A stretch of 10,821 nucleotides of DNA from Desulfobacula sp. (GTDB taxonomy: Bacteria > Desulfobacterota > Desulfobacteria > Desulfobacterales > Desulfobacteraceae), in NCBI GenBank assembly GCA_023139225.1, contig JAGLNZ010000173.1, positions 1 through 10,821 on the forward strand. Reading direction: 5' to 3'. Position numbers and translations under genes: made by a program. This document shows positions 2,656 through 10,821 of the stretch, piece after piece. The notes below the pieces were generated by a model that did no database searches, was not told the origin of the DNA, and was given only the letters and a program-made list of their open reading frames with translations. Each line of letters begins with the position of its first letter. Within the stretch, counting starts at the first letter, position 1.

Positions 2656-2726
2656 AAGACCGCTGGCCTGCTGTCATTAATTTAAAGGCCTCGTAACTAT
2701 TAAACAGTGTGGAAAATGGTTTATAT

Positions 2727-3626
2727 ATGTTAACTGAAACCCCACCGCAAAAAACGATTCTTGTTGTAGATGATGCTGTAAGCAACATCGACATGCTGCT
2801 TGTAATTCTCAAGGACTATGATGTAATCCCTGTCACCTCGGGCGAAGAGGCTCTCTCCCTTCTGGATGAAGAGATTGTGGACATGATACTTCTTGATATT
2901 ATGATGCCGGTTATGGATGGATTTGAAGTTTGTCTTAATCTTAAGGCCAATGATGCAACCAAAGAAATACCTGTCATTTTTATTACCGCCAGGAATGATG
3001 TGGAAAGCATTGAAAAAGCCTATGATGTGGGAGGGGTTGATTATGTAACCAAACCTTTTAGACCAAGAGAGCTTTTGGCCCGAGTCAAAACCCATCTTCA
3101 TCTGCGTGAGGTAATCCATAGACTTGATTATCTTGCCACCCACGACAGCCTTACCGGGCTTTACAACCGCAGAAAGTTTTTCGAACTGGCACAGCAGTTG
3201 TACAATGCAAAAAGAGACGATGTGTTTGCCGTCATGATCGATATCGATCATTTTAAACGGATCAATGACCGTCATGGTCACCATTCCGGGGACCTGGTTT
3301 TAAAGGCCATCACAAAAAGCATCAGGGATTTGTTACCGGCGGATTCTATTTTTGGCCGTGTGGGCGGTGAAGAGTTTGCCGCCCTGATTAACGCTTATAA
3401 CCTGGATGAAGTGAAACAATTGATTGAAAAAATTCGAATTACTGTTTCAGAACTGATCATATCAATCAGGGGCGGGGCCAATCTATCCTGCACAATAAGC
3501 AGTGGCGTAGCTCAAACAGGAGAAGACATCACTTCATTGGATGATCTGTTAAAAAAGGCGGATGATGCGTTATACGAGGCTAAGGGAAGTGGACGTAATC
3601 GATCTGTATTCAGACAAAGGGATTAA
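2727..3626 (+). CDS. Response regulator with GGDEF output, diguanylate cyclase
   Basis: A 299-residue soluble protein. Residues about 10-125 are a receiver domain with acidic pair D15/D16, phospho-acceptor D57 in LLDIMMPVMDG, T87 and K109 in TKPF. Residues about 132-295 are a GGDEF domain that makes cyclic di-GMP from two GTP. The entry motif is HDSLTGLYNRR, the metal/GTP segment MIDIDHFKRIND, and the active-site loop an intact GGEEF (213-217). The position of the product-inhibition I-site (RxxD, five residues before GGEEF) reads PADS, so allosteric feedback is probably absent. There is no transmembrane segment or EAL domain. I chose the ATG at 2727. An in-frame GTG at 2709 would add six residues, and neither has a good ribosome binding site. 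It is first of three co-directional genes and is probably phosphorylated through the hybrid kinase encoded third; that partnership is inferred from linkage. Confidence 0.92.
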   Translation: MLTETPPQKTILVVDDAVSNIDMLLVILKDYDVIPVTSGEEALSLLDEEIVDMILLDIMMPVMDGFEVCLNLKANDATKEIPVIFITARNDVESIEKAYDVGGVDYVTKPFRPRELLARVKTHLHLREVIHRLDYLATHDSLTGLYNRRKFFELAQQLYNAKRDDVFAVMIDIDHFKRINDRHGHHSGDLVLKAITKSIRDLLPADSIFGRVGGEEFAALINAYNLDEVKQLIEKIRITVSELIISIRGGANLSCTISSGVAQTGEDITSLDDLLKKADDALYEAKGSGRNRSVFRQRD

Positions 3627-3726
3627 AACCCTGGAAGCCATCTCAAAAAAAATGGGGTTGTAATTAAGGCAAGTCAAAGTTTTTTTATAAAAGATGATTT
3701 CTATATCAACTGAAAGGACTATCGAG

Positions 3727-4863
3727 ATGCCTGTTACCAAATACGAAAAAATAAAGTGTGCCGAGGTTGTTTCACTGGATCCTGCAGCAGCAGTAAAATC
3801 CCTGGCAAGGCAACTGCATCAGGATGAAATCGCAGGGGTGATATTTTTCTGCTCCTCCAAGTATGATCCCCATACCCTGGCAGCTGAATTCAGAGATCGT
3901 TTTGATTGCTCGGTGGTGGGATGTACTACTGCAGGAGAGATTGGAACTCATTATCAGGAAGACGGAATCGTGGCGGTTAGTTTTAGCAAACGGGATTTTA
4001 GCTTTCATCCCCATCTGATTTCTTCTATGGCCGATTTTAATGCTGAAGACGCTTTTAAAATGGCTGACAAAATTCATGGAGAACTAGAATTTTCTGAAAA
4101 TTTTAATCCTGATGAAATGTTCGCCATGGTCCTTTTGGACGGCCTTTCGGTTATGGAAGAACCTGTCACTGCTTATATTAATGCTGCTATCAAAGGGGTT
4201 CCCCTGATCGGTGGATCCGCAGGCGACAGCCTGGAATTCAAAGAGACCCGGGTATTTGCTCACGGAAAGTTTCACACCGGAGCCGGCGTTTTTATCATGA
4301 TCGAGTCCCGCCTGCCTTTTAAGACCTTTAAACTTCAACATTTTGAACCGTCGGAAGACGATCTGGTCATCACCGAAGCCGATCCCACGACTCGGACGGT
4401 ATCGGAAATTAACGGTGTGCCTGCGGCCGAGGAGTACGCTAATATATTGGGGCTGGAAATCCGGGAGCTGACACCCCAGGTTTTTGCCCGTTACCCTGTC
4501 ATGCTGGAGATCGGTGATGCATGGTATGTTCGTTCGATCCAGAAGGTTAATCCAGACGGAAGCCTCACCTTTTTTTGCGCCATTGACAACGGGTTGGTTT
4601 TGACGGTGGCCAGGGGCGTTGGGTTTGTGGAATCCCTTGAAAATAAAATAGAGGAGTTGACAGCCGAGTTCTCCAGTATTTTATGCACCCTCGGATGCGA
4701 CTGCATCCTGCGTCGGTTGGAACTTCTTGAAACAGATGAGACTGCAAAGACCGAAAAGGTATTGTCCCGGCTGAATTTTGTTGGATTCAGCACCTTTGGC
4801 GAGCAGTTCAATGCCATTCACGTCAACCAGACGTTGACAGGTGTCGTTCTGGGAGAGAGATGA
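3727..4863 (+). CDS. FIST-domain sensor protein, NosP-like candidate
   Basis: A 378-residue cytoplasmic protein made of FIST_N followed by FIST_C and nothing else. FIST_N landmarks are SVVGCTTAGEIGT (62-74) and the GVPLIGGSAGDSLEF segment (157-171). FIST_C landmarks are the DCILRRLELLE segment near 325-335 and GFSTFGEQFNAIHVNQTLTG near 353-372. FIST domains are ligand-binding input modules. One characterised branch, NosP, binds haem, senses nitric oxide and inhibits a co-encoded histidine kinase. Here the next gene is such a kinase, starting 3 bases after this stop, which supports a sensor-kinase pair; the ligand itself is inferred. Cysteines at 320, 324 and 326 form a close group. The ATG at 3727 is preferred because AAAGGA (3713-3718) precedes it by eight bases. 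An upstream in-frame ATG at 3694 would add 11 residues but lacks a ribosome binding site. Confidence 0.9.
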   Translation: MPVTKYEKIKCAEVVSLDPAAAVKSLARQLHQDEIAGVIFFCSSKYDPHTLAAEFRDRFDCSVVGCTTAGEIGTHYQEDGIVAVSFSKRDFSFHPHLISSMADFNAEDAFKMADKIHGELEFSENFNPDEMFAMVLLDGLSVMEEPVTAYINAAIKGVPLIGGSAGDSLEFKETRVFAHGKFHTGAGVFIMIESRLPFKTFKLQHFEPSEDDLVITEADPTTRTVSEINGVPAAEEYANILGLEIRELTPQVFARYPVMLEIGDAWYVRSIQKVNPDGSLTFFCAIDNGLVLTVARGVGFVESLENKIEELTAEFSSILCTLGCDCILRRLELLETDETAKTEKVLSRLNFVGFSTFGEQFNAIHVNQTLTGVVLGER

Positions 4864-4866
4864 GCC

Positions 4867-7221
4867 ATGGCTGCCAGGGAAGATCTACAAAAAAAAGTTA
4901 TTGATTTGGAAAAACAGCTTAGTAAAGCAAAGAAGATCAACCATGCCCTCAAGGATCGCGTTCGAAAAAGTGTCAAGTCCACAGGCGATTCCTATTCCGT
5001 GTTTGAAAACAATATCCTGCTCCAGAATGCTGTCAATCAAAAAACCAGAGCCCTGGAGAAAGCCATTGTTGCTGCCACTGCGTCCACAAGGGCAAAGAGT
5101 GAATTTCTGGCTAACATGAGCCATGAAATCCGTACACCGATGAATGCCATCACCGGCATGACCTATCTTCTAAAGCAAACCGATCCCACGCTCCGGCAGC
5201 GTGACTATATTACCAAGATTGAAAACTCGGCCAACGCCCTGCTGGGTATTATAAACGATATCCTGGATATTTCCAAAATTGAAGCTGGCAGACTGGACAT
5301 AGAGGCCATTGATTTTGATCTTCACAAGGTGATCGAAGATGTAACCATGCTGGTCGAAATCAATGCAGCGGAAAAAGACCTTGATTTTGTAGTCTCCTAT
5401 GAGAATATCACGAACATGAATTTTCATGGGGATCCCCTGAGGCTTACCCAAATTCTCACCAACCTGGTGAATAATGCAGTGAAATTCACTTCAAAAGGTG
5501 AAGTGGGCGTCTATGTTCGAACCCTGACAAAGGACCGTTTTTGTTTTGAAGTGAAAGACACCGGCATAGGCCTGACTGAGGAGCAGAAAAACAAGCTGTT
5601 TCAATCATTCAGCCAGGCTGACGCCAGTACTACCCGGAAATATGGTGGCACAGGACTGGGGTTGTCCATCTGCAAGCACTTGGTAGAGATGATGGGCGGT
5701 CGGATTTGGGTGGAGAGTGAATTCGGCAAAGGGAGTTCATTCATTTTTGAAATAACCCTCAAGGAACTTGAAAAAACCGAAAAACCTGTAGAGAAGTTCA
5801 ATGATAAGAGAGTTCTTATTGTTGATGATACGCCGTCATGGCAGATAATCTTGCAAAAAATGCTTCACCGGTTCTCCATAGAAACCGATGTGGCTGGAAG
5901 CGGCGAGGAAGCCCTTAGAATGATAGGCAGTCAAGATCAGATCTATGACTTGATATTAATGGACTGGCGCATGCCCGGGATGGACGGCCTCCAGACAGCC
6001 AGATTAATACAAGAGCATTGCAAATCTATCCCACCCACCATTATCATGGTTTCAGCCTACAGGCAGGAATCCCTGCAGCAAATTGCAATGGAACAGGGTA
6101 TTGATATATTTTTGCACAAACCGGTCAACCCTTCGACTCTGTATGATATTATCACAGATTTTTTTGGCTCCGGTATTGTCAGAGATTACCGACATAAGGC
6201 CAAGAAATATTCCCTGAAAAGAAAGCTTACCACACTCAAGGGCAGCACCCTCTTACTTGTTGAAGACAATACCATGAATTGTGAGATTATCCATGGCATT
6301 CTGGAACCCAGCGGTATCATCATTAAAGAGGCAGCAAATGGAAAAGAAGCCGTGGCCATGTATCAGGCTTCTCCTGACACCTATGAGCTTATACTCATGG
6401 ATCTTCAAATGCCTGTCATGGACGGCTATGCAGCAGCAAAGGAGATTAGAAAGATTGATCAAACTGTTCCTATCATCGCTGTCAGTGCCAATGCAATGAC
6501 CAGTGACATTGAAAAGACACGTCAGTATGAGATGAACGAACATCTCAATAAGCCCATTGATGTGGAAAAATTATTTGCAGTGCTGTTAAAATATATTCCT
6601 AAAAAATGTGATACGGCCCAGGAAGCCGGCCGGCTTGATACCATAAATGGAAAAATCCCATTACCTGCTTTAAGGTCCATTGATACAAATGCAGGTCTCA
6701 AACAGATGCTGGGAGATGTGAGTCTTTATATCAAAATAGTACGGGATTTTTCTGACAACTATGAGGGCACTGCAGAGACGCTGATTCAACTTATCAATGA
6801 TAACAGGGCCGAAGCAAAACGTCTCGTCCATACGATAAAAGGACTGAGCGGCAATATTGGTGCGGTTAAACTCCATAAAAAGGCTGTCCGGTTCGATGAA
6901 TCATTGGACCTTAGTCTGCTTGCCCCATTTACTGCTGAGTTGCAAAGGGTCGTTGATGAGATTAAACACAGCAAGGTATTCTCTGACCGTCAGCCATTGG
7001 AGTTGAACCAAACAAAGAGGTTGAACAAAACAGATCGGGATCAGTTAATGCAGCAGCTTAAAGAAGCCTTGAAAAAGCGACGTCCCCAACTTGTAAGTCC
7101 AATTCTTGATGAACTTAACCTCTGTGATTTGGGCGGTACTGATCTTGAATTGCTCGATAAAATCACTACTTTGGTTAAGAAATATAAGTTCAAGGATGCC
7201 TTTAATATTATTGCTGTTTAA
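4867..7221 (+). CDS. Soluble hybrid histidine kinase: coiled coil, HisKA, HATPase, two receivers, HPt
   Basis: A 784-residue phosphorelay kinase with no membrane segments and no recognisable PAS, GAF or other sensor domain. Residues 1-78 are a charged coiled coil ([20 protein letters not shown]) followed by a [15 protein letters not shown] stretch seen in FIST-linked kinases. HisKA has phospho-acceptor His86 in [14 protein letters not shown]. The ATPase domain shows [10 protein letters not shown] (199-208), DTGIG (231-235) and GGTGLGLSI (260-268). Receiver 1 (about 314-434) has D320/D321, D366 and K418. Receiver 2 (about 459-578) has E466/D467, D512 and K562. The HPt domain has His655 in [13 protein letters not shown], and a helical tail runs to the end. 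All key residues are intact, so a full His-Asp-His-Asp relay is possible. GGGAGAGAGA just before the start overlaps the end of the FIST gene, implying coupled expression. The diguanylate cyclase two genes upstream is a plausible final acceptor. Confidence 0.94.
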
Positions 7222-7226
7222 GGTGG

Positions 7227-7421
7227 TCATCCACAACTGTAAGCAGCCGGATCTTTTGACCGTTCAGACAAGAACAGCTTTCGATCGTTCACATTATTTG
7301 CTCTTAGTTTCAAGACTTTACCAATCCTCATACCACCTCTTGCCATTAAATCAAGCATCAACCTATTTCTGCGATTATCTGTTTTGAAAATTATTTCATC
7401 AATCACATCTTTATCATCCAT
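7227..7421 (-). pseudogene. Fragment of a tyrosine-type site-specific integrase
   Basis: A 64-codon open frame on the minus strand reads MDDKDVIDEIIFKTDNRRNR followed by LMLDLMARGGMRIGKVLKLR and NDRKLFLSE. This matches the start of the catalytic domain of phage-type tyrosine recombinases, where ARGGMRIGEVLKL carries the first catalytic arginine (here Arg32, codon 7326-7328). The downstream catalytic HxxR and tyrosine boxes are missing. Near the end the frame departs from the family pattern. A shift of one base gives a KRSG string resembling the usual PKSG turn, so a frameshift is likely. It abuts the end of the hybrid kinase gene and overlaps the last bases of the aminotransferase gene. It should be non-functional and marks a past integration event. 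Confidence 0.6.
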
Positions 7422-8574
7422 GAAGCTTGGATAACTTATTTGAAATCACTTTCCCAAGGCGACGGGCACCCTCTGCCAGGATCTTATCGTCATAAAAAGC
7501 AAAGGAAAGGCGCATATAATTCTTTAATTCTTTTCTGTATGAAAAAAGGCTTCCAGGATGAAAATCTACATTTTGTTTTCGGGCGGCTTTCCTGAAAATA
7601 TTGGTGTCAATACCATCCGGGAACCGCACCCAAATAAAATATCCTCCCTCTGGAACCTTAAATACCGCCTGATCGGGCAGATATTCTCTCAGATAATCGC
7701 AAAAAATTTCAATCCTTTGACGGTAGACGGTTTTGAGTTTCTGTATATGGGTCGTTAAGAATCCAAGGTGAATAGCTGAATTTACAATTTCCGACGTGAA
7801 GGGATTGAACCCACCGCCGCTGGTCAGGAGTCCTGACCTGGTCATTTTTTTTACCAGTGCAGGGCTGGTATGCATCCATCCCAGCCTCAACCCCGGTGCC
7901 AAAATTTTTGAAAAGGAACCCAAACTAATTACGGGGCATATATTATTCCAGGTTCCCATGGAAGGCACTGAATCATTTGAATAATTAAGAAGTTGATAGA
8001 CCTCGTCGGCCACCACCAACAAGTTTTTTTGTGTACAAATTTTGACCAGTTCCTCTCGCCTTTTGAGAGACAAAGTGACACTGGCCGGATTGTGAAAAGT
8101 GGGAATGGTATACAGGAAGGCTGGGGTTAGTGTTTCTAACCTTTCTTTGAGAACATCTGTCACCAGTCCATTATCATCCACAGGTATACCGACCAGATTG
8201 AGCTTATGATCTGCAAATATTTTTAGAGCCAGAAAATAACTGGGCTCCTCAACCAGCACTGTATCTCCCGGATGGGCAAACAATGTACAGATAAAATCTA
8301 AGGCTTGAGAATTCCCGTTGGTGATCAACAATTGTTTGGGATCCACCCTGTTTGGGTATTGAGAGGTTAAAAACTCGGCCAGGGTTTCCCTGAAATTTGT
8401 ATTACCCTGCTCTTCTCCGTAGGCAAGCAAGGATCTGTCATCCCTGGATAGGGAATGGGCAGCAGCTTTTTCCATTTCTTTTGAGGGGAGTAAATGGCTG
8501 CTCGGCTGCCCTAATCCCAGGTGAATCATGTTGGAAGGGAGATCAACCTGAGGAAGGCCCTGATTAAAATCCAT
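7414..8574 (-). CDS. PLP-dependent class I/II aminotransferase (2-aminoadipate/aromatic type)
   Basis: A 386-residue cytosolic fold-type I aminotransferase that moves an amino group between an amino acid and a 2-oxo acid. The N-terminus reads MIHLGLGQPSSHLLP. The cofactor site shows PSYFLALKIF (Tyr113), TIPTFHNPASVTLS with Asn162, VVADEVYQLL with Asp190 and Tyr193, and the Schiff-base lysine Lys223 in SLGSFSKILAPGLRLGW. Arg355 in NYMRLSFAF is the expected substrate-carboxylate ligand. The TIPTFHNP pattern places it with the LysN/Aro8/MocR-catalytic group (COG1167), but here without a GntR helix-turn-helix. Substrate is not predictable. I chose the ATG at 8574, which has GGAGA seven bases upstream. 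The frame stays open to 8766, but that would overlap the preceding M23-like gene and add 64 unrelated residues. It starts 28 bases after the M23-like stop and is the last gene of the leftward operon. Confidence 0.92.
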   Translation of the reverse strand: MDFNQGLPQVDLPSNMIHLGLGQPSSHLLPSKEMEKAAAHSLSRDDRSLLAYGEEQGNTNFRETLAEFLTSQYPNRVDPKQLLITNGNSQALDFICTLFAHPGDTVLVEEPSYFLALKIFADHKLNLVGIPVDDNGLVTDVLKERLETLTPAFLYTIPTFHNPASVTLSLKRREELVKICTQKNLLVVADEVYQLLNYSNDSVPSMGTWNNICPVISLGSFSKILAPGLRLGWMHTSPALVKKMTRSGLLTSGGGFNPFTSEIVNSAIHLGFLTTHIQKLKTVYRQRIEIFCDYLREYLPDQAVFKVPEGGYFIWVRFPDGIDTNIFRKAARKQNVDFHPGSLFSYRKELKNYMRLSFAFYDDKILAEGARRLGKVISNKLSKLHG

Positions 8575-8602: not shown

Positions 8603-9265
8603 TTAAATCCTAAACAGGGACAAAGGCGATGGGCAGAGCTCCTCCATTTGTGCAAGATCGCTTGCAGCACTATATCCTTTGGAAAGATACCCGTTTTCAA
8701 GACCCTTTTGAGTAATAACCTGAAGATGGGTATGATAAAACCAATTCCCATTTTCATGGAAATCACCGATATAGGAGAAGGCTTCTCCTGCGGTAAATTT
8801 TGTACCGACCGCAGGAAGCTTTTCTTTGTTTAAATGGCCGTAAAAGCTGTAAAAAGTTTCAAAATCAGGGCTTTCATGCATTAAAAGGACATGAGCACCA
8901 TAATTTCCCTCACCTGCTTCATATCCACTCTCCTTGACCCTGGCATCCAAAGGAGCGTGCAAGGGTGTGCCTAATGGAACAATGATATCAAGTCCCAGGT
9001 GATAAAACCGTTTTTCCTCAACCATCTGGGGGCAGGGGGACAGGAGTATTTCCCGGTTTTCAAGATAGGATGAAACACCCCATGTGTACCTGTCGTTCAT
9101 CATATTGTCCAAAAGTTGCTGAAACCCTTTCTGATCCCTGACATCAATAGTATCAAAAAGGGTAGACTGAACTGACATATCCACTTCCAGCGGATCACCT
9201 GTCAGGTTTTTGAAAATGGGTTGAATATCAATTTTTTTACTATATGCGATATAGGGGTATTTCAT
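8603..9265 (-). CDS. Leaderless M23 (LytM-fold) metallopeptidase-like protein
   Basis: A 220-residue protein with a C-terminal M23/LytM beta-barrel. The zinc-site motifs are complete: HLGLD with His89 and Asp93, YGHL with His144, and HTHLQV with His178 and His180. M23 enzymes normally cut peptidoglycan cross-links outside the cytoplasm. This one has no signal peptide or membrane segment, as the N-terminus MKYPYIAYSKK is polar, so it probably acts in the cytoplasm on another substrate. The segment HLGLDIIVPLGTPLHAPLD and the ending resemble, from memory, the M23 domain embedded in long class III aminotransferase/phosphotransferase fusion proteins. The fact that this gene sits directly before an aminotransferase gene fits that association. 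AGGAT precedes the ATG at a suitable distance. It begins 14 bases after the radical SAM stop, so the two are cotranscribed. Confidence 0.85.
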   Translation of the reverse strand: MKYPYIAYSKKIDIQPIFKNLTGDPLEVDMSVQSTLFDTIDVRDQKGFQQLLDNMMNDRYTWGVSSYLENREILLSPCPQMVEEKRFYHLGLDIIVPLGTPLHAPLDARVKESGYEAGEGNYGAHVLLMHESPDFETFYSFYGHLNKEKLPAVGTKFTAGEAFSYIGDFHENGNWFYHTHLQVITQKGLENGYLSKGYSAASDLAQMEELCPSPLSLFRI

Positions 9266-9279
9266 TATTCTATCCTGCC

Positions 9280-10821
9280 CTAAGAAATTGGAAAATTGTT
9301 TGTCTTTATGAGTCCCGGCACCTGAACCAGGGGAGAACCATCATCATCTGTAATAATACCAGTTGGAAACTCAAAATTTTTATCCAATCCTTTGTAATAT
9401 GACAAGTCATAGCATCCAAGCTTTATTTTTACCTGACCATTGTCATGAACAAATGATGAGGTTAAACCATAATCCACCTCGCCCAGAAGCGTTGAGATAA
9501 TATATCTGGGAATTTCCCTTCCTGATCCTTCTCTTCTCACTTTTGTAGCAATGTCAACAACATCATAGGAATCCACGGGGTGGTCACTGTTCCACTTTTG
9601 CTGAATGGGAAGCCCGGCAGCATAAATGTGATGGAATTCCATCCCTGATTTTCGTACGCTATACGCAAGGGAGTGTATGTGAACATCAGAATCATTGACC
9701 CCCCCTAAAAGTGCTGTATTGCAATAAACGGTTATTCCTTTGTTGTTCAGTCTTCTAACCAGTTTTTCATGAGCATTTGTTATTTCATCAGCCAGGATAA
9801 ACCATGTTTCGATTTCAAGCCTTAAAGGATTTACCACACAAAGATTGTTTAAATCTCCAAGGGTATTGATTACAGCCCTTGTATACGCTTTTGGCTGGAC
9901 ATTAAACTTCGGGCTGACCAGGCGGACAGCATTCACATGGGGAATCTCGCCAAGTTTTTTAATAAGCGGTTTTATATAAAACAGAGAATCGATTGCATCG
10001 ATTGAGGAGGATATGATTACATCGGTAATCCTGTCATCTGATCTGATGTAGTCAATTTGCTTATCTTTAGCCCGGGCATCAATCTCAACCCTTGTTTCAT
10101 GGAGTCGCAAAAGTTTTTCAAAACCTGAGTTCTCTCCAACATCTACAATGGACGGCCCTGTTTGTCTTTGGTTTACTAACACGGATTGAAGCATTTCAAT
10201 ATCATCTGAAGAGGCCCATTTTTTTTCTATCACTTCTCTTTTGGGTCTGGGTCCATGAAGAAGAGATTCATCCCCGATCTGTGCCAGATATTGAATATCA
10301 ATGGTGCCTTCATCATTCACCCTGATATTAGTGAGTTCATTGGCAAGGGGGGCAAAAGCTTTAAAATAATCCGGTGTATACGGGGTCCTGATCCAAACGA
10401 AATTCTCATTGTCTTTCACCTTTTCCACTGCCCATCCGCTGGTATACCAGTCCATTTTCCCAATGGGGGTTGCCGTGCAGATTCTCGGGATGACCCTGTC
10501 TGAAAGATGTGCTCGAAGGTGCTTGGCAATTCCCATTCCTTCAGACAGGGTACTCCAGTAAATACTGTTTCCATGGATGGGGCTGCAGGGGATATAAATA
10601 TAATGAAGCTCAGCACCGGCACCGCGCAAAAGGCTGAAAAGTCTCACAAGTTCAGGACCTTTGTCATTGCAGTCCTTCAAAAACGGCGTCTGGATATAAA
10701 CCGCAATCCCATTGTTAACAAGATCGGAGATAATATCAAGACTTTCAGGCGACACTTCATCCGGATGAATAAAATGGGTGGCCACTTCCATTCTTTTACC
10801 GCGCTGCTGGAGTTCAAAGTT
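9280..10821 (-). CDS. KamA-family (lysine 2,3-aminomutase-like) radical SAM protein with duplicated barrel, 5' end missing
   Basis: 513 residues are visible; the frame is still open at the right edge, so the true start lies outside. The first 160 or so residues are the C-terminal half of a lysine-2,3-aminomutase-like barrel: RMEVATHFIHPDEVSPESL, then IQTPFLKDCND, HYIYIPCSPIHGN and IPRICTATPIGKMDWYTSGW. A second, weaker copy follows from about visible residue 225: DYIRSDDRITDVIISSSIDA, RLEIETWFILADEIT, NTALLGGVND, HHIYAAGLPIQ and IPRYIISTLLGEVDYGLTSS. KamA relatives use a [4Fe-4S] cluster, S-adenosylmethionine and usually PLP to migrate amino groups. In the second copy the position of the CxxxCxxC motif reads as SGFEKLLR and the THFxHP histidines are gone, so it looks non-catalytic. 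Any catalytic motif would be in the first copy, off the window. It is followed closely by the M23-like and aminotransferase genes. Confidence 0.82.
   Translation of the reverse strand, partial: NFELQQRGKRMEVATHFIHPDEVSPESLDIISDLVNNGIAVYIQTPFLKDCNDKGPELVRLFSLLRGAGAELHYIYIPCSPIHGNSIYWSTLSEGMGIAKHLRAHLSDRVIPRICTATPIGKMDWYTSGWAVEKVKDNENFVWIRTPYTPDYFKAFAPLANELTNIRVNDEGTIDIQYLAQIGDESLLHGPRPKREVIEKKWASSDDIEMLQSVLVNQRQTGPSIVDVGENSGFEKLLRLHETRVEIDARAKDKQIDYIRSDDRITDVIISSSIDAIDSLFYIKPLIKKLGEIPHVNAVRLVSPKFNVQPKAYTRAVINTLGDLNNLCVVNPLRLEIETWFILADEITNAHEKLVRRLNNKGITVYCNTALLGGVNDSDVHIHSLAYSVRKSGMEFHHIYAAGLPIQQKWNSDHPVDSYDVVDIATKVRREGSGREIPRYIISTLLGEVDYGLTSSFVHDNGQVKIKLGCYDLSYYKGLDKNFEFPTGIITDDDGSPLVQVPGLIKTNNFPIS

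Follow-up and report, generated by a model that had tools for sequence, protein, structure and literature searches.

A KamA-like radical SAM protein of Desulfobacula that joins an intact barrel to a conserved second copy without the iron-sulphur site

The protein described here is a tandem radical S-adenosylmethionine (SAM) protein partly encoded on a 10,821-nucleotide contig of Desulfobacula sp. (GenBank assembly GCA_023139225.1, contig JAGLNZ010000173.1), which was analysed over its full length and is referred to below as the window. It belongs to a family of fused bacterial proteins, found mostly in sulphate-reducing bacteria, in which one intact radical-making barrel is joined to a conserved second copy that lacks the iron-sulphur site, the gene being part of a nutrient-uptake cluster. 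In the window, an open frame at 9280-10821 on the minus strand, the strand of all gene parts given below, forms the 3' part of this gene (513 codons and a stop) and runs open into the window edge. As the window spans the complete contig (contig 83, G000:C83:1-10821, of a 3.5 Mb assembly in 752 contigs that is 77% complete), the gene is cut within it, and the 5' part, for residues 1-311, lies beyond the contig end. The translated frame is identical letter for letter to residues 312-824 of a full-length database protein of 824 amino acids, P0001, which is itself 88% identical to P0003, annotated as a radical SAM protein of Desulfobacula.

An earlier note, made from the letters of the window alone, had proposed two alignable KamA-like segments in one polypeptide, and the pairs of segments that it matched are genuine. 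Compared as profiles, half 1 (residues 119-500) and half 2 (535-824) match with a probability of 99.8 (E = 1.2e-30; 26% identity over 256 columns), and each half alone matches the lysine 2,3-aminomutase (LAM) structure 2a5h, with independent E-values of 5.5e-4 for half 1 and 1.1e-4 for half 2, so that the LAM fold is found in both, including the C-terminal half for which the note had sought a KamA match. The two barrels that the note looked for are also seen in a confident full-length structure prediction (predicted template modelling score, pTM, 0.92). Identity between P0001 and 2a5h is 20% over 346 aligned residues. A full-length Foldseek alignment to LAM gave a root-mean-square deviation of 14.5 over 446 columns, perhaps because the halves were mixed, and its place was taken by a separate model of half 2; the VIA-align range of the full model (103-815 against 3-369) may likewise mix the halves, and domain swapping is not argued from it. 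In the full-length prediction the half-2 strand at 555-559 is followed by a helix at 564-572 with no CxxxCxxC loop between them and, judged by eye, half 2 is shorter by about 26 residues, the cluster loop included. The N-terminal domain (residues 1-118) matched no Pfam family above its cut-off.

Conservation was read from 98 clustered tandem open reading frames (ORFs), 84 of them full-length (740-900 amino acids). A 75% identity filter left 45 ORFs, 39 of which were aligned with P0001 to give 40 members that are 43-88% identical to it, L020, L026, L051, L058, L060 and L068 being excluded; counts out of 40 refer to this alignment. The cluster motif of half 1, absent from the visible frame, is present as CPVYCRFC in the 311 residues of P0001 outside the window, which supports an intact radical SAM motif in the first copy. 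Its cysteines (C212, C216 and C219) occur in 40/40 members and the pattern CPxYCxxC in all 84 full-length ORFs, and half 1 matches the radical SAM superfamily (PF04055) at 40.1 bits against a cut-off of 29.5. The remainder of half 1 (residues 312-505, window positions 10240-10821) comprises radical SAM barrel and a C-terminal beta region. It retains the THFxHP histidines, as the note had stated, in THFIHP (326-331; 10762-10779), where H327 and H330 are invariant. Also invariant are R221, C390 in PCSP (389-392; 10579-10590), and C426 and K433 at the two ends of CTATPIGK (426-433; 10456-10479). K433 lies in the same register as the lysine of a single KamA protein, L110 (TPIGK against TPYGK), a lysine thus standing at the position for pyridoxal 5'-phosphate (PLP), and probably binds this cofactor. 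As far as sequence can tell, half 1 has the requirements of a radical SAM/PLP aminomutase.

C390 and C426 are two further invariant cysteines of half 1, at or near the substrate-binding aspartate positions of LAM. In the alignment with single KamA proteins, C390 and A428, each found in 40/40 members, take the places of LAM Asp293 and Asp330, which we take to be the aspartates for the lysine epsilon-amine. With Cys and Ala in the places of both aspartates, the pocket is probably not one for a substrate with a free omega-amino group.

Half 2 (about residues 548-824; 9283-10113) follows a variable linker (about 506-547; 10114-10239) and is a LAM-like barrel with neither the [4Fe-4S] loop nor the PLP lysine. 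CxxxCxxC occurs in the second copy of 0/40 aligned members and, within the last 310 residues, of 0/84 full-length ORFs, in agreement with the note. Its further statement that the second copy has lost the THFxHP histidines holds for the window protein, which reads ETWFILAD at this place, and for the family only by half: the first histidine is kept in none of the 40 members, where W, Q or another residue stands instead, and the second is still His in 11. At the position of K433, half 2 has Glu in 37 members and Asp in three; this is E759, within SGREIP...T..GE.D (744-761; 9472-9525). Other stretches are strictly kept. Half 2 has 22 columns invariant in all members, many of them with charged residues that lie on or close to predicted barrel strands, and these include E647 and E649 of RLEIET (645-650; 9805-9822), the counterpart of the half-1 RMEVAT strand, and E706 of EFHH (706-709; 9628-9639), each histidine of which is found in 38/40.

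The fusion is a conserved family, as shown by the 40 aligned members, the 84 full-length ORFs and the separate grouping of the halves in a tree of 17 half-1, 17 half-2 and 11 single-protein rows (17 of the 40 aligned members; L063 was excluded, being a fragment that covers no more than the N-terminal domain). Each group falls on one side of a branch with support of 100/99 or better, so that a single origin of the tandem is probable. The halves are sisters if the root is placed among the single proteins, in agreement with internal duplication, and in the aligned rows inspected both have VY..T patterns and, ahead of the RxE strand, a longer loop. Half 2 is no closer to another KamA subfamily in this rootless tree, and internal duplication is the likelier reading. 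Between the window gene and six relatives, the ratio of non-synonymous to synonymous substitution rates (dN/dS) lies at 0.031-0.078 in the visible part of half 1 and at 0.085-0.125 in half 2, which evolves faster in all six pairs; in three of these the half-2 dS is above 1, which makes the ratios rough. In two further pairs the values were 0.05 and 0.11 for half 1 and 0.14 twice for half 2. The invariant columns and the low ratios of half 2 argue for a function, which may or may not be the substrate-carrier or dimer-mimicking one that the note had suggested. A second group of tandem paralogues is mostly 43-47% identical and, in the short loci examined, has none of the importer, racemase or M23 genes of the main cluster; in-frame TGA codons in three paralogues were considered as selenocysteine and rejected, each being the natural stop near the end of its gene.

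Two peptide patterns from half 1, run against a species-genome collection, found 79 loci, many of them cut short. Most are from Desulfobacterota or 'Deltaproteobacteria' and a few have no stated lineage, those from elsewhere being L066 (Candidatus Vecturithrix granuli) and L051 (a Sphaerochaetaceae bin). The common gene order is a racemase-family gene, an amidohydrolase, a sigma-54-type regulator, two permeases, a binding protein, an ATPase, a 109-amino-acid protein (L003:9644-9976; no Pfam family above cut-off and no usable NCBIfam name), the tandem gene and an M23-like gene; Desulfosarcina is among those in which the same genes diverge from an IclR-type regulator. Profile searches found the binding protein in 52 of the 79 loci, the racemase family in 40, the amidohydrolase in 36, M23 in 50 and AblB in 14. 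Any of ATPase, binding protein or first permease is present in 66; a lone ATPase match is weak evidence of an importer, such ATPases being common, and the binding-protein count was used instead. Among the 41 loci with 8 kb upstream, 37 have the binding protein, 34 the racemase family and 34 the amidohydrolase, and only L052 has none of the three importer components. M23 is found in 48 of the 66 loci with at least 900 bases downstream.

The window itself carries two of the associated genes. The M23-like protein of 220 amino acids (8603-9265, minus strand) is the usual downstream neighbour of the tandem gene and has HxxxD and HxH but, by eye, no evident signal peptide. Beyond it lies a class I/II PLP aminotransferase (7414-8574, minus strand; the start is taken from relatives, the listed ORF reaching 8766), which is the next gene in a few relatives. 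The racemase-family gene is present elsewhere in the assembly, cut at the end of contig 287. Across 38 related genomes, the main tandem group (at least 56% identity) occurs in 14, and ten of these have the M23-like gene; of the other four, two have a tandem gene cut at a contig end. Three of the 38 have the M23-like gene without the main tandem gene, and in one of these three (G020:C34:11529-12333) it stands beside a remnant of the tandem-gene C-terminus with three stops, an apparent loss of the tandem gene. In a Desulfonatronum bin, a true AblA lysine 2,3-aminomutase (L073:13846-15324; 750.6 bits) and an AblB-family gene lie near the tandem gene.

As to the compound handled, the best hint that it is an amino acid comes from the importer, which is exchanged non-orthologously in L037, L059 and L077, where amino-acid-type permeases and binding proteins replace the polyamine-type system; L031 has an amino-acid-type permease beside the tandem gene. 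The L059 binding protein matches SBP_bac_3 at 140.1 bits; the named models closest to it, none above cut-off, are those for binders of cystine and of lysine/arginine/ornithine. The racemase-family protein of L003 belongs to the proline racemase family (PF05544, 299.8 bits, cut-off 27) and falls below all six equivalog cut-offs listed; it and that of L011 contain YLCGHA and SPCGTG, presumably the two active-site cysteine contexts that are the hallmark of this family.

The explanation that we favour, and consider reasonably probable as a whole, is that of a two-barrel KamA-superfamily protein with a live half 1 and a half 2 that stands in for a partner, working in an uptake and catabolism cluster. 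It builds on the observed architecture, conservation, selection and cluster, from which we infer a reaction, a substrate class and a role for half 2. By this account a KamA-like gene probably underwent a single tandem duplication and fusion, after which the second copy lost the iron-sulphur loop and PLP lysine but stayed under selection. Half 1, in which the motif is observed, would bind [4Fe-4S] and SAM, and PLP via K433, and its 5'-deoxyadenosyl radical would drive the 1,2-shift of an amino group, or a similar rearrangement, in an imported amino acid that R221 would hold and that would have no free omega-amino group. Half 2 most likely replaces the partner subunit of LAM, the two-barrel model fitting a fixed built-in partner, and would have a conserved polar pocket of its own, in which substrate, product or an effector may sit; because half 2 is conserved, it is likely to be a built-in partner or a second pocket. 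The enzyme would act alongside the ABC (ATP-binding cassette) importer, the proline-racemase-family enzyme, the amidohydrolase, the M23-like protein and sometimes the aminotransferase.

Several observations weigh against this explanation. P0001 and P0067 score 160.4 and 159.3 bits against the cut-off of 199.2 for the KamA family model, TIGR00238, which 10/10 single KamA controls pass, and P0001 is below the cut-off of every equivalog model listed; the tandem protein is therefore, by the curated rule, KamA-like and not a KamA member, and the label 'aminomutase' is itself extrapolated. The pairing of C390 with Asp293 depends on the alignment, HMMER's own placing a gap there. The tree has no root and long branches connect its groups, a point on which the program issued a warning; for this reason internal duplication is likely and no firmer as the source of half 2. 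The partner-subunit idea rests on a predicted model. In the cluster, 18 of the 66 loci with room downstream have no M23 gene, the 77% complete assembly of the window yielded no importer binding protein, and AblB, which would suit a beta-amino-acid product, is above cut-off in only 2/38 related genomes, so that AblB as a fixed partner was rejected for the window's genus.

The strongest alternative, to which we give substantial weight though somewhat less than an even chance, is that half 2 is mainly a second binding site, which captures imported substrate, product or effector and controls half 1, and does not replace a LAM subunit. Many invariant polar residues of half 2 lie on or beside predicted barrel strands (R550, H552, D578, R611, E647, E649, Y677, N687, R701, E706, Q718, S744, R746, T755 and D761 are the invariant polar ones), and R645, E647 and E649 alternate along one strand, as such a site would have it; the same residues may, however, serve folding or an interface, and L072 and L073 lack the HH pair.

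Two further alternatives concern the substrate. Rather unlikely is that the cluster serves to scavenge an amino-acid solute in N-acylated or cyclic form, such as N-acetyl-beta-lysine or a proline-type compound, with the mutase working from beta to alpha and the amidohydrolase deacylating: the linkage of importer, amidohydrolase and racemase-family genes to the mutase gene, the amino-acid-type importer of some loci and a half-1 pocket without the charges expected for a free omega-ammonium are all in keeping with it, but the substrate is deduced, and among the families listed there is none whose curated, substrate-naming cut-off is passed by the L003 racemase-family protein or amidohydrolase. 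Less probable still is that the protein makes beta-lysine from lysine and works with AblB in osmolyte synthesis. AblB-family genes occur in the 14 loci counted above, directly upstream and co-oriented in L052, L055, L057 and L064, and that of L052 passes the AblB cut-off (307.4 against 205.1); yet both lysine-binding aspartates appear replaced, L073 has its separate true AblA (cut-off 525.4) and AblB-family gene besides the tandem gene, AblB is rare in the related genomes, and import and racemase genes are ill-suited to osmolyte synthesis. It is scarcely credible that half 2 is a functionless relic in decay, for although it evolves the faster and has lost the catalytic motifs, its dN/dS is low, its 22 columns are invariant, and the loci with a half-1 frame and no full half 2 (L074, L077, L080, L097 and L100) owe the break to a contig end or a run of N, the latter also accounting for an apparent gene fission in L097, rejected as an assembly artefact.

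We put forward, as a tentative and rather doubtful proposal, that these proteins form a previously undescribed class of cis-heterodimeric radical SAM enzymes, in which an internal duplicate, now a cluster-less pseudo-barrel with its own conserved ligand pocket, would hand over or sense the substrate while the live half rearranges this non-lysine amino acid by PLP-dependent radical chemistry, within a dedicated import and catabolism cluster of anaerobes. Pseudoenzymes fused to, and conserved with, their own live copy are useful for understanding how enzymes gain regulation or new substrates; should mutase and cluster serve for a solute whose anaerobic degradation is not yet known, they would mark an unassigned amino-acid pathway in marine sulphate reducers, for which the cluster supplies concrete genes for testing.

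The rest of the window holds genes of other kinds. Those for a response regulator-GGDEF protein, a FIST-domain sensor and a hybrid histidine kinase with Hpt are consecutive at 2709-7221, likely a signalling operon, and a medium-chain reductase gene (1222-2259; 594.7 bits against the NCBIfam cut-off of 440 for NADPH-dependent curcumin reductase) is convergent with a DJ-1/AraC regulator gene at 180-1166.

A search of the open-licence literature turned up no description of a tandem KamA-type radical SAM enzyme with a fused pseudoenzyme and no paper on the gene cluster. The usual AblA/AblB route to N-epsilon-acetyl-beta-lysine is described in PMC3543383. The tandem protein resembles lysine 2,3-aminomutase (KamA/AblA; TIGR03820; PDB 2a5h) in the fold of both halves and, in half 1, in CxxxCxxC, the arginine after it, THFxHP and the lysine at the PLP position. 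It differs in its fused cluster-less duplicate, in its extra N-terminal domain and in the Cys and Ala that align with LAM Asp293 and Asp330, and it reaches 161.4 bits against the TIGR03820 cut-off of 525.4. Glutamate and arginine 2,3-aminomutases (TIGR04368 and TIGR04468) are relatives in the same superfamily with other substrates, described by single-barrel models of 404 and 351 positions to which P0001 scores 149.6 and 149.1 bits (cut-offs 650 and 600); EpmB, the EF-P beta-lysylation protein (TIGR03821), is also of the KamA superfamily and single-barrelled, with P0001 at 133.9 bits against 369.3. The adjacent 220-amino-acid protein, finally, matches the middle part (positions 361-570 of 1015) of PRK06148-type fused proteins (NF004799) at 108 bits, far under the cut-off of 1128, and unlike those fusions it is a free-standing M23-like protein beside a radical SAM gene.
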